Below, one piece after another: positions 13,915 through 47,070 of a stretch of 64,000 bases of DNA. The notes beneath the pieces are model-generated. The model was not told the origin of the DNA, searched no databases, and was given only the letters and a program-made list of their open reading frames with translations. The position numbers and the translations under genes were made by a program. How positions within the stretch are numbered: the first letter of the stretch is position 1; every line of letters begins with the position of its first letter. The stretch comes from Natronolimnobius baerhuensis (GTDB lineage: Archaea > Halobacteriota > Halobacteria > Halobacteriales > Natrialbaceae). The stretch spans positions 558,001-622,000 of the forward strand of contig NZ_MWPH01000002.1 in NCBI RefSeq assembly GCF_002177135.1. The letters are read 5' to 3'.

Positions 13915-14040
13915 CGTGCTGGGACGATCCTCCCAGCTCGGCACAACCGACGCTCGAGCGGGTTCGACACCGATAATTACGACTGTTGGTCGGTAGATCT
14001 ATTATGCATGGGCCGTAGAGTCGATAATGAGGGTCTACCT

Positions 14041-14448
14041 GTGGAAATATCTGAAAAGCTCCTGTGTCTGTTCAGTAGCGAGGTATCAGCAGAGGAGGAT
14101 CGATATGTCATCGAGGTACCGCGTCAAGAAGTTGAAACCGGCGATATCGACCCGGAGGATGTCTATCGCGTTGCACTCATCTCGCGCGATGAGGATCTCG
14201 AGTCCGATGGGGAAACGGTCGCACAACCCCAGAGTGCGCCATCCGAACCACAGCCACCAGTCGATGTGAGCGAAACCCGCTATGTCGAGATCGAAGACAT
14301 CGGCAAGCAAGGCGACGGGATCGCACGCGTCGAACGGGGCTACGTTATCATCGTCCCAGGGGCCGACGTCGGCGACCGCGTCAAAATCGAAGTCACCGAA
14401 GTCAAATCGAATTTCGCAGTCGGCGAAATCATCGAAGAGACGTTCTAA
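14041..14448 (+). CDS. TRAM-domain protein
   Basis: A 135-residue protein. A conserved N-terminal segment (EISEKLLCLFSSEV) and a disordered linker lead to a C-terminal TRAM domain: ETRYVEIEDIGKQGDGIA, then GYVIIVPGADVGDRVKIEVTE. TRAM is a small beta-barrel RNA-binding domain also found in tRNA methyltransferases, and stand-alone haloarchaeal versions are thought to be RNA chaperones. The GTG at 14041 is chosen because it gives the conserved family N terminus and has GAGGG about 8 nt upstream. The ATG at 14008 is the alternative. Confidence 0.82.
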   Translation: MEISEKLLCLFSSEVSAEEDRYVIEVPRQEVETGDIDPEDVYRVALISRDEDLESDGETVAQPQSAPSEPQPPVDVSETRYVEIEDIGKQGDGIARVERGYVIIVPGADVGDRVKIEVTEVKSNFAVGEIIEETF

Positions 14449-14455
14449 AGACGAA

Positions 14456-14693
14456 CTTTTTTACCGGAGGCCTCGCGACCGGCCGCGGGCCGGTCGCTCA
14501 ACCTCCGGCAAAAAGCTTCCTCAGAAATCGAAGATTTCTGATGGGCGCAGCAAGAGCGTCGCTCTTGCGGCCGTCGATGAAAAAAGACCGAGCGCGCTAC
14601 CGGCGCGCTCGGGGTTCTCGTAAGCGCACCACGCGAACGAGAGCCAGCGAGGCACGACGTGTCTCGCGTGAAACGACGCGCACAGCGCGTCGT
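14456..14693. repeat. Tandem array of seven hairpins
   Basis: Seven consecutive inverted repeats fill the space between the TRAM gene and GGGP synthase. They are: a nested hairpin at 14456-14516 (inner 10-bp stem, GCG loop at 14475-14497, outer CCGGAGG/CCTCCGG); TCAGAAATC-GAA-GATTTCTGA at 14521-14541; GCAAGAGC-GTC-GCTCTTGC at 14550-14568; a 10-bp stem with TACCG loop at 14588-14612; a TCTCGT/ACGAGA stem at 14616-14642; a 9-bp stem with one wobble at 14647-14667; and ACGACGCGC-ACA-GCGCGTCGT at 14673-14693. Most have three-base loops. The first may end transcription; the remainder is unexplained. Confidence 0.85.
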
Positions 14694-14711
14694 ACTCTTC
14701 CTTACCGAGTC

Positions 14712-15491
14712 TTATCTATCGGGAATTGTCTCGCGGAACTGCTCCGGATCGTCGTGGAAACAGTCGCCGACGACGATTGCGTCCGCGCCAGCCTCGAGGA
14801 TTGCCTCGGCTTTTGCGGCGCTGTCGATGCCGCCGCCGTAGAACAGCGTCGTCTCCTCGAGATAGTCCGCGGCTGCCTCGACGTCTTCGGGACCGCCGTA
14901 GGTACCAGAGTATTCGATGTAAAAGACCGGAAAGCCGTAGAACGATTCGGTTGCCAGGGCAGCGCCGGCAACTTCCTCGGGTGTGTAGGTCGTTTCGACG
15001 CCTGCGCGGTCGGCCGCCGCAGACTCGAGGTGCTGGACGACGTAGCCCTCGCCGAACAGCGAGTCGGTGAGTTCAGCGACTTTTTCGATGCCTTTCGATT
15101 CGACGAGGCCGCCGACGAGCGGGACGCTCGAGGCCAGCGTCTCTGCAGGCTTGCGTCCGACTGTGGTAAAGAGATCGATGTGCTTGCCGACGAAGTGGTC
15201 CCAGTCGCCGTTGTAGACCGCCGGGACGGAGAGACCGTCGACGGCTTCCATTGTGTCCGTCGAAACGTGATCCGAACGGTAGGGTTCCTGCCAGACAGGG
15301 ATGTCGAGGGCTGAATCCTGAATCGCTTCGATTGCCTCGAGCGTGTTCTGGGCGGTTACGCCGTCAGAGCCGCCAATCATCACCAGATCGGTTCCCTCGA
15401 GCACCGAGAGGTCCGCGGGGAGCGATTTCTCGGGGTCGACTTTCGTCACGTGCGTAATCGAATCCCAATCCCACTCCCAATCGGATGTCAT
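14712..15491 (-). CDS. Phosphoglycerol geranylgeranyltransferase (GGGP synthase)
   Basis: A 259-residue TIM-barrel prenyltransferase that joins geranylgeranyl diphosphate to sn-glycerol-1-phosphate, the first ether-bond step of archaeal membrane lipids. Diagnostic segments are HVTKVDPEKSL near the start, the YIEYSGTYG motif, and the C-terminal phosphate loops GGGIDS and GADAIVVGD. It belongs to the short euryarchaeal type. The ATG at 15491 (MTSDWEW) aligns with the usual family start and has GGTG just upstream; an in-frame ATG at 15545 would add 18 residues. The geranylgeranyl reductase at 63347 acts later in the same pathway. Confidence 0.9.
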   Translation of the reverse strand: MTSDWEWDWDSITHVTKVDPEKSLPADLSVLEGTDLVMIGGSDGVTAQNTLEAIEAIQDSALDIPVWQEPYRSDHVSTDTMEAVDGLSVPAVYNGDWDHFVGKHIDLFTTVGRKPAETLASSVPLVGGLVESKGIEKVAELTDSLFGEGYVVQHLESAAADRAGVETTYTPEEVAGAALATESFYGFPVFYIEYSGTYGGPEDVEAAADYLEETTLFYGGGIDSAAKAEAILEAGADAIVVGDCFHDDPEQFRETIPDR

Positions 15492-15613
15492 ATCGACACC
15501 TTCGAATCGGGTCTTCAATTTCTTGTCGATATTGATCATACTCATCGCCTGCTACTCGAGTCCAAGCAGCGGCCTCGACCCGCAGCAAAACCTGTTTCTG
15601 AGGACAGTCGCCG

Positions 15614-45470: not shown

Positions 45471-45574
45471 GCTCGCGATTTCGGCAGGCAACTGTAAGTC
45501 ACTTACCCTTTCAGCGTCTTTTTTCCACACTATCTTCTTCGTACAGTATCCGGGAGCGATCAGTTTGACATCCT

Positions 45575-45594
45575 CCCCGCGCTGAAGCGCGAGG
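45575..45594 (-). ncRNA. Right-end hairpin, likely part of omega RNA scaffold
   Basis: On the minus strand CCTCGCGCT-TC-AGCGCGGGG forms a 9-bp stem (one G-U pair) just before the element's right boundary. In TnpB systems the 3' part of the transcript plus this end folds into the guide RNA scaffold, and the bases after the boundary (45562 downward) act as the guide. The RNA is inferred. Confidence 0.55.
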
Positions 45595-45613
45595 ATTCCC
45601 GAGTGTTGGGATA

Positions 45614-46882
45614 TTACGGTTTGCAACCTGCTTGTTCGCCCGGTGCGAAACGCCCCGAGGTCTGATTGAACAAGTAGGCTACTGGCCGTGCCAAACGACC
45701 GTTACTCATATCCCCCGTAGGAGGATTCTGAGTTATCTTTCTTCGAATATTCACCGCTCCATTCACGTCTGCGTTCATTGTCGCACCACACGACTCACAG
45801 ATGTACAATCCACGCTCCACACGATTCGCGTCACGCTTCCGGCCACAGCACGAACACGTCTTGCTCGTATTTCGTTCACTTTTACAGTCAACAAGGATAC
45901 CGTATTCCTCCGCCTTGTATTCGAGCAACGTGGTGAATCGGTCAAACTCCCATCCGTGGAGTTTCTTGTTCCCGCGCTTCCCCCAGTTCCGCGAGTCACC
46001 GTTCTCGTCCTCACGAATCTGGCTTAAGTCACCGATAGCGATGCGACCGACTTCGTGGTCGATGCACTGCTCAACGATGTGTTTGGCGAGGGCGTGTAGG
46101 AAGTGGTCTTTTCGACACGAGAGTCTCTGTCGGGCGCGGAGCGCACGCTTCGATGGCCCGTTATCGCCCTCCGTGTCGTACTCGTCGCGGGTGAAGTAGT
46201 GCTTGTCCTGCTTCAAGACGTTCCCCGGATACAACTCGGCGTCACCGTCGTCGTAGGCGATGGCGAGGTAGTTGCTGATACCGAGGTCGATTCCAGCCGT
46301 GTTGTCGCCGGGTGCGTCCCCGACGGGAATTTCGACTTTGCAGACGAGGTGGAGTTCCCAGCGGTCGCCGTTCCACACGGCGCGAACTTGCTGGATGTTC
46401 TCCACGGTCACGTCCGGTCGCGTCTCGTATTCGACGAGGAGGAAGTCCGAGCGGTGCTGTTTGAGGTTGAATCCCTTGCTCAGGCGGATTTGGTTGTGTT
46501 TGGAATCGTGTTTGATGCCGTTCTGCTTCCACGTGACAGTAGAGCGTGGATGGTTGTCGCCTCGCTTTCTGTAGCCGGGTGGATTCGCGTCTCTGTCGCC
46601 GTTCTTGCGCTTTTTGAACCAACCGTTGAACGACTCAGCAAGCTCTTCTAGAACTCGCTGACTTGACTGAGAATGTAAGTCACTGTATCGTTCGTGGTCT
46701 TTTAGTTCGCGCTTGAGGTCGGCGTCGGACGGAATCTCGCCGGTTCCGTCCCACTCTTGTTGGATGTGGTAGCGGGCGACGTTCCACAGTTTCGATGCCG
46801 AGTGTCCGCAGTCATCGAGGTCGTCGCTCACTTGGGAGTGGTTGACGATTTTTGCTCGATAGGTGCGAGTTGTTTCCAGCAT
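45614..46882 (-). CDS. tnpB: TnpB-family RNA-guided nuclease (IS605 OrfB)
   Basis: A 422-residue TnpB. The RuvC-I aspartate is D199 in AGIDLG. The RuvC-II position reads IGDLSQIRE (D285 where most TnpB have Glu). The zinc finger is C343/C346 and C362/C365, and the RuvC-III aspartate is D372 in NADVNGA. The N-terminal recognition domain contains SASKLWNVARYHIQQEW. Length is normal. It is intact apart from the changed RuvC-II residue. Flanking end structures support a mobile element. Active cutting is uncertain. Confidence 0.92.
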   Translation of the reverse strand: MLETTRTYRAKIVNHSQVSDDLDDCGHSASKLWNVARYHIQQEWDGTGEIPSDADLKRELKDHERYSDLHSQSSQRVLEELAESFNGWFKKRKNGDRDANPPGYRKRGDNHPRSTVTWKQNGIKHDSKHNQIRLSKGFNLKQHRSDFLLVEYETRPDVTVENIQQVRAVWNGDRWELHLVCKVEIPVGDAPGDNTAGIDLGISNYLAIAYDDGDAELYPGNVLKQDKHYFTRDEYDTEGDNGPSKRALRARQRLSCRKDHFLHALAKHIVEQCIDHEVGRIAIGDLSQIREDENGDSRNWGKRGNKKLHGWEFDRFTTLLEYKAEEYGILVDCKSERNTSKTCSCCGRKRDANRVERGLYICESCGATMNADVNGAVNIRRKITQNPPTGDMSNGRLARPVAYLFNQTSGRFAPGEQAGCKP

Positions 46883-46907: not shown

Positions 46908-47004
46908 GGATGTTCCGTATTAAAGATAGTGATTGAGCGTGGAATATCCAGCCGTGCAGTAATCGGTGGTTTGCGTCATCCAGTGACGGCGCGTATCCCC
47001 GTCC

Positions 47005-47070
47005 CCAGAAATCTTTGATTTCTGGTGTGCGAACGAGACGCGAAGCGTCTCGTCAACGCCGTAAACGGCG
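47005..47070. repeat. Second hairpin cluster (three stems)
   Basis: CCAGAAATC-TTT-GATTTCTGG at 47005-47025, ACGAGACGC-GAA-GCGTCTCGT at 47033-47053 and CGCCG-TAAA-CGGCG at 47057-47070. The first shares its AGAAATC/GATTTCT arms with the hairpin at 14521 in the large array. Located between the TnpB element and the HTH-zinc ribbon gene. Confidence 0.75.

Follow-up and report, generated by a model that had tools for sequence, protein, structure and literature searches.

A tandem hairpin array between two convergent haloarchaeal genes: a probable composite of a terminator-like spacer and a dispersed 54-bp hairpin pair

The window analysed here, a stretch of 64 kb (G000:C2:558001-622000, where G000 is the window's own genome, that of Natronolimnobius baerhuensis), carries seven consecutive hairpins, A to G, at 14464-14693 in the spacer of two convergent genes. 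The array is very probably composite: an old, terminator-like spacer formed by A, D and G, a mobile element of 54 bp consisting of hairpins B and C (BC), of a kind that inserts at CG, and a probable second unit, E-F.

Architecture of the array

The two genes and the modules between them are as follows.

14008..14448, plus strand: gene for a TRAM-domain protein, upstream of the array (Pfam TRAM, E 1.3e-15)
14457..14514, unstranded: module A, consisting of a T6 tract (14457-14462), an outer stem, an inner hairpin and an A5 tract
14464-14470 / 14502-14508: outer stem of module A, CCGGAGG/CCTCCGG
14475-14497: inner hairpin of module A, GCGACCGGCC-GCG-GGCCGGTCGC
14518..14571, plus strand: BC element, 54 bp, covariance-model match of 75.7 bits
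14521-14541 and 14550-14568: hairpins B and C of the BC element, with the linker TGGGCGCA
14580..14612, minus strand: module D, an A6 tract, which reads U6 on the minus strand, and then a hairpin, from a scan for terminator-like features
14588-14612: hairpin of module D, CCGAGCGCGC-TACCG-GCGCGCTCGG, terminator-like for the minus-strand gene and conserved in orthologous spacers
14613..14668, unstranded: E-F unit, about 56 bp, between D and TGAA-G, with E at 14613-14645 and F at 14647-14667
14673..14693, unstranded: hairpin G, ACGACGCGC-ACA-GCGCGTCGT, belonging to the common plan
14712..15545, minus strand: convergent gene for a PcrB-family (geranylgeranylglyceryl phosphate synthase-type) protein, stop at 14712 (Pfam PcrB, E 2.4e-34)

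An earlier note on this DNA had reported tandem hairpins between two genes, and all seven are real. Its description of mostly perfect stems with three-base loops is right, yet not for every hairpin, because the loop of D has five bases (one G-U pair would close it to three), E combines imperfect pairing with a larger loop, and the pairing of F requires G-U. The excess of folding stability over shuffled controls is present as well: the stretch 14440-14710 folds with -146.8 kcal/mol, compared to -101.7 ± 4.8 kcal/mol in 200 dinucleotide shuffles (z -9.5), none of which was as stable as the native sequence. Only eight exact hairpins with a stem of at least 8 bp and a loop of 3 occur in the whole window, four of them in the array and two more in a related copy at 47000-47060 (47005-47053). 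Along these lines, the first 200 nt past the orthologous TRAM gene in 110 Natrialbaceae genomes hold 109 exact hairpins (stem of at least 7, loop of 3-5), compared to 5.4 in mononucleotide shuffles. Three-base loops in these spacers (L139-L248) are of the form GNA or TNC in 46/84 cases, the orthologs not being independent of each other; GNA triloops are very stable in DNA.

Orthologous spacers and the old common plan

Comparison at the DNA level resolves the array into modules, each with matches of its own in the family. The TRAM gene finds matches in 123/125 Natrialbaceae genomes, and orthologous spacers were taken 3' of it in the 110 genomes mentioned above. In spacers such as L148, L160, L179, L195 and L203 A is joined to D directly, without B-C, and D leads through a four-base linker to G, without E-F. 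The joint from A to D, with A tracts on either side, reads CTTCGATG in L148, L160 and L179, GTTCGATG in L195 and TCTCGACC in L203; the D hairpin of these spacers has the arm CCGAGCGCGC, the linker is TGAA, GGAA or AAAA, and the next hairpin is ACGGCGCG(C). The order in such spacers is T tract, outer stem enclosing an inner triloop hairpin, A tract, joint, A tract, D, linker and G, and the form of hairpin G, ACGGCGCGC-nnn-GCGCGCCGT, recurs in 17 orthologous spacers, its loop varying among them. In A, the inner stem has been exchanged wholesale among species (GCGACCGGCC, GCGCGGCC, GGCTGGCGTC, GGTCGGC and others), each version being self-complementary. The interior of hairpin A and its flanks in L203 (G063; CATC...TCAA) appear inverted relative to L188 (G077; TTGA...GATG), as though the segment enclosed by the outer arms had been turned round.

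B-C is an insert in this spacer, where it was found in eight genomes (G000, G096, G090, G009, G091, G087, G092 and, in decayed form, G093). E-F occupies the orthologous spacer of only two genomes, both of the window's own genus, and some orthologs lack the whole array. A close relative of D-E-F lies at another locus of G010, weaker relatives occur elsewhere, and double hairpins related to E-F were found at the unrelated loci L288-L293; E-F is probably a second two-hairpin insert, of another family, whose exact ends are not fixed. Conservation of the stems in relatives, which the earlier note had proposed to check, holds at this locus for the A, D, G plan, which is common, and not for B-C and E-F, which are absent from many orthologous spacers.

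Hairpins A, D and G with their T and A tracts form the old common plan, which resembles a two-way terminator and is shared by many Natrialbaceae. In Haloferax volcanii, intergenic terminators are marked chiefly by T stretches, with hairpins before some sites (PMC7237163), and the T tracts on both strands of the array would suit terminators of this kind, as would their position at both sides of the spacer and the hairpin beside the minus-strand T tract. It could be argued that the array is nothing but an elaborate two-way terminator, in which every hairpin stops the two convergent transcripts, and the gene orientation, the T6 tract at 14457-14462 and the U6 that comes after hairpin D on the minus strand are all in keeping with this, as is the Haloferax volcanii motif. 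This explanation accounts for A, D and perhaps G, that is, for the old part only; it does not account for the inserts B-C and E-F, which are missing in orthologs, or for the presence of B-C in coding regions elsewhere, and is quite unlikely.

The linker between A and D, CAAAAACTTCGATGAAAAAGG, was found with up to two mismatches in 79/125 genomes, often in several copies, with 0 matches for the reversed control in the genomes listed, so that the A-D cassette, too, is dispersed. Three tandem copies of this linker, with a spacing of 159 bp, lie at G018:C1:373904-374242. The orientation of genes around A-D cassettes, as given by a crude ORF picker, is mixed.

The BC element: form, distribution and covariation

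The typical form of the element is TCCTCAGAAATC-nnn-GATTTCTGA-TGGGC, followed by a second hairpin and RA. The arms of hairpin B are mostly AGAAATC/GATTTCT, with AGAACGC/GCGTTCT and AGAAACG/CGTTTCT as further versions; hairpin C is more variable. The recurrence of the first arm pair near 47005, to which the earlier note had drawn attention, was confirmed at 47007-47023, the chance expectation being 0.12 (up to two mismatches). BC is widely dispersed in the class: a covariance model built from 21 copies gave 11 matches in the window's own genome at E <= 0.01, and matches in 120/125 Natrialbaceae genomes and in 349/391 genomes drawn from the Halobacteria, corresponding to 83/86 genera. A DNA search matched 31 haloarchaeal plasmid records and gave no match in phage records, and no credible match of the model was obtained in two Haloquadratum plasmid stretches.

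Aligned copies have stems of 8-9 bp and loops of about 3 nt. In 51 copies, 95.4% of the cells of the stems are paired, compared to 86.8% in column shuffles, and 12 pairs and 75 cells are changed on both sides, compared to 19 cells in shuffles (0/500 shuffles as high); with partners slid by 1-3 columns the pairing falls to 34-48%, and relatedness inflates these covariation figures. Both stems of BC are thus retained by compensatory change. Hairpin B without hairpin C was seen only in L004, beside an N, in a scan of loci that had been fetched by BC-like matches and is hence biased, and no autonomous element with BC ends was found. B-C is a dispersed non-autonomous mobile element.

In this context it has to be weighed whether selection maintains the array as a whole, either as a single structured RNA with a function, a possibility that the earlier note had also raised, or as a 3' UTR with several hairpins. 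The very stable fold and the compensatory change that keeps the stems speak in its favor. A search of the array against Rfam 15, on the other hand, returned no family above its gathering score (a single sub-threshold match, 19.8 bits as opposed to 85), different hairpins are missing in different relatives, down to the whole array, B-C of the same form lies inside unrelated genes, and the inner stem of A is swapped wholesale among species. As one conserved RNA this reading is unsupported and very unlikely.

Insertion sites and the CG target

Of 59 distinct BC flanks, almost all have CG and then TCC on the left, and on the right they end in CG or a variant. The joined flanks were used to seek uninterrupted relatives, i.e., empty sites. 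Locus L085 reads GGCAC-CG-TCCTCAG...GTGAA-CG-CCAG, with 54 bp between the CGs, and its empty-site relatives L263, L267, L269 and L276 read GGCACCGCCAG, so that the net insertion, 54 bp and one CG taken together, amounts to 56 bp. Equally clean insertions emerged when L128, in a DDE transposase gene, and L097, in a gene for a putative metallo-hydrolase, were compared with uninterrupted relatives. When the flanks of L079 and L076 were joined, uninterrupted reading frames resulted that are 489 and 435 aa long and carry OrfB_IS605 and TNB domains; joined flanks also gave DDE transposase frames, and BC elsewhere interrupts tnpB and other transposase genes. The comparison shows that at these other sites BC inserts at CG, mostly CGYC, with CG left on either side. 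The CG may be a duplicated target or a fixed end of the element, both of which fit L085. A 4-bp target duplication of CGTC was rejected, since on the right CGCC or CGCT often stands in its place and the empty site of L085 reads CGCC. In the array itself the element is flanked by CT on the left (14516-14517; CG in relatives) and by CG on the right (14572-14573), and the left boundary at this locus is therefore drawn from relatives.

BC occupies one and the same place between A and D in several genera, and G023 has four copies of identical score, so that some copies may have spread by cassette copying instead of moving by themselves. The suggestion in the earlier note of a hotspot for hairpin-inserting elements gains support, with B-C mobile, uninterrupted relatives at other sites, and E-F resembling a second insert.

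An IS607-type serine recombinase could be considered for the movement of BC. Exchange at a 2-bp core by such an enzyme would leave the dinucleotide on either side, and the repeat at the L085 insertion site is exactly the 2-bp CG. The two conserved hairpins with their near-fixed spacing are, however, typical of Y1 substrates, and BC is also present in Y1 loci, although these are weak arguments against it. IS607-type movement is regarded as improbable.

BC at IS200/IS605 elements

The related copy in the window lies beside an element of IS200/IS605 type.

45574-45738, minus strand: match at the tnpB 3' end to Rfam sot0042 (sense overlapping transcript RNA), exceeding the gathering score of that family
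45614..46882, minus strand: tnpB (IS1341 / IS200-IS605 type), downstream of the 47000 copy (Pfam OrfB_IS605, E 4.2e-16; Cas12f1-like_TNB, E 6.4e-22)
47000..47060, plus strand: second BC-family copy, about 47002-47056, covariance-model match of 64.3 bits

This copy is flanked by CG at 47000-47001 and at 47057-47058 and adjoins the palindrome CGCCGTAAACGGCG upstream of tnpB. In L325 and L328 a left-end palindrome, CCCGCCG..CGGCGGG, is intact, whereas BC breaks it in L321, and the flanks of L130 and L131 place BC within near-terminal palindromes of IS605-type elements. An IS1341-type tnpB element at L119 (G000:C2:75902-77464) has BC-like hairpin pairs near either end. At L336 / L126 (G096:C1 near 793198) two inverted BC copies share one CG, near the left end in L336; inverted pairs were found only there and at L076/L067. 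The numbers of BC and Y1 matches in 125 genomes are correlated (Spearman 0.37, p 2.6e-5), a figure confounded by mobile-element load and kinship; 32/125 genomes have no Y1_Tnp match, and their median is 4.5 BC copies.

Comparison with known repeat families

In its working BC resembles REP/REPIN, PATE and SMR repeats, though it may belong to none of these families. The bacterial REP/REPIN sequences share several features with BC. They are short hairpins, often paired, mostly intergenic and sometimes within genes. In Stenotrophomonas, REP with a perfect 8-bp stem and a 3-nt loop are known, and TnpA-REP cuts single-stranded DNA at CT beside the hairpin (PMC8266576); the corresponding dinucleotide at the ends of BC is CG. 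The BC stems of 8-9 bp fall within the range given for REP (5-13 bp, short loop). The unpaired REP tag (GTAG or CGTC) is a conserved part of the repeat; CGTC precedes hairpin B in most copies, yet TC alone belongs to the element and CG alone is shared with the target, as seen at the empty site of L085. REP of the CGTC family, however, have A/T in the first two stem positions, a loop of 4-5 nt and a CCA-like tail, whereas the stem of BC starts with TCAG and is followed, after a 3-nt loop, by TGGGC. Furthermore, inverted dimers of like palindromes predominate among REPINs, in contrast to the unlike hairpins B and C in their fixed order. As to a cognate RAYT, a general search for Y1_Tnp genes was made, and of 30 loci surrounding such genes a minority hold BC. 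Coordinates had at first suggested a RAYT-like neighbourhood, which was discarded, the loci showing instead BC interrupting IS ends. Finally, REP/REPINs are bacterial and BC is spread over an archaeal class; the IS200 type is the only TnpA subclass observed in Archaea (PMC6006769).

Closer at hand are two groups of elements from Haloquadratum walsbyi, which were compared with BC by their published descriptions. PATEs are likewise haloarchaeal, short and non-coding, with palindromes near both ends and no terminal inverted repeats, and their terminal-only forms measure 52 bp, compared to 54 bp for BC; they lack a target duplication, and the CG on either side of BC may be a 2-bp duplication or a fixed end. 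BC could be a set of such terminal-only remnants of an IS605-type transposon with the core deleted. The similar size and the strain-specific insertions described for PATEs (PMC3119063) are consistent with this origin, and PATE palindromes resemble IS605-type ends. Yet no complete transposon ending in B and C, and thus no such parent, was found among the loci fetched, several IS605 left ends here carry other palindromes (CCCGCCG..CGGCGGG), and the Haloquadratum plasmid stretches gave no credible match, which leaves this origin doubtful. SMR-A inserts in near-terminal palindromes of IS605-type elements by a mechanism described as unknown (PMC3119063), and BC does the same; SMR-A is about 110 bp long with inverted terminal repeats, whereas BC has 54 bp and none. 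An inverted BC pair such as L336 would resemble SMR-A and comes close to its size. No description of the BC sequence was found in the open-access literature searched, although a PATE name for it may already exist.

Proposed mechanism and implications

The preferred reading remains the composite array, and for the movement of its BC part a mechanism can be put forward by analogy. The hairpins would be recognised as single-stranded DNA, and an IS200-type Y1 (HUH) transposase would cut and join the element at CG in trans; such a TnpA is proposed because it is the only type observed in Archaea. In its favor are the BC copies in several of the Y1 loci, the correlation of BC and Y1 counts, and the TnpA-REP enzymes that cut beside hairpins; against it stand the genomes that carry BC without a Y1_Tnp match. 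This mechanism is possible, though somewhat less likely than not. Spacers of the present sort and the palindromes of IS605 ends may serve as tolerated or preferred landing sites, so that hairpins would accumulate in tandem. The hairpins may be a target for a protein, another suggestion of the earlier note, solely in the sense that a transposase may recognise them. Taken further, and more tentatively, BC might represent an undescribed, class-wide family of REP-like hairpin pairs, which IS200-type transposases, normally in the service of IS605 elements, would mobilise as single-stranded DNA; BC would then parasitise and inactivate the ends of those very elements.

REP-type repeats are known from bacteria, where the proposed enzyme is a domesticated Y1 transposase. 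With its 54 bp, two covarying hairpins, a defined CG target and relatives in nearly all Halobacteria searched, BC opens the search for such an enzyme to Archaea. It offers an explanation for the pile-up of hairpins in haloarchaeal intergenic regions. Insertion into IS605 ends, as reported for SMR-A in Haloquadratum, now also has an example defined by sequence.
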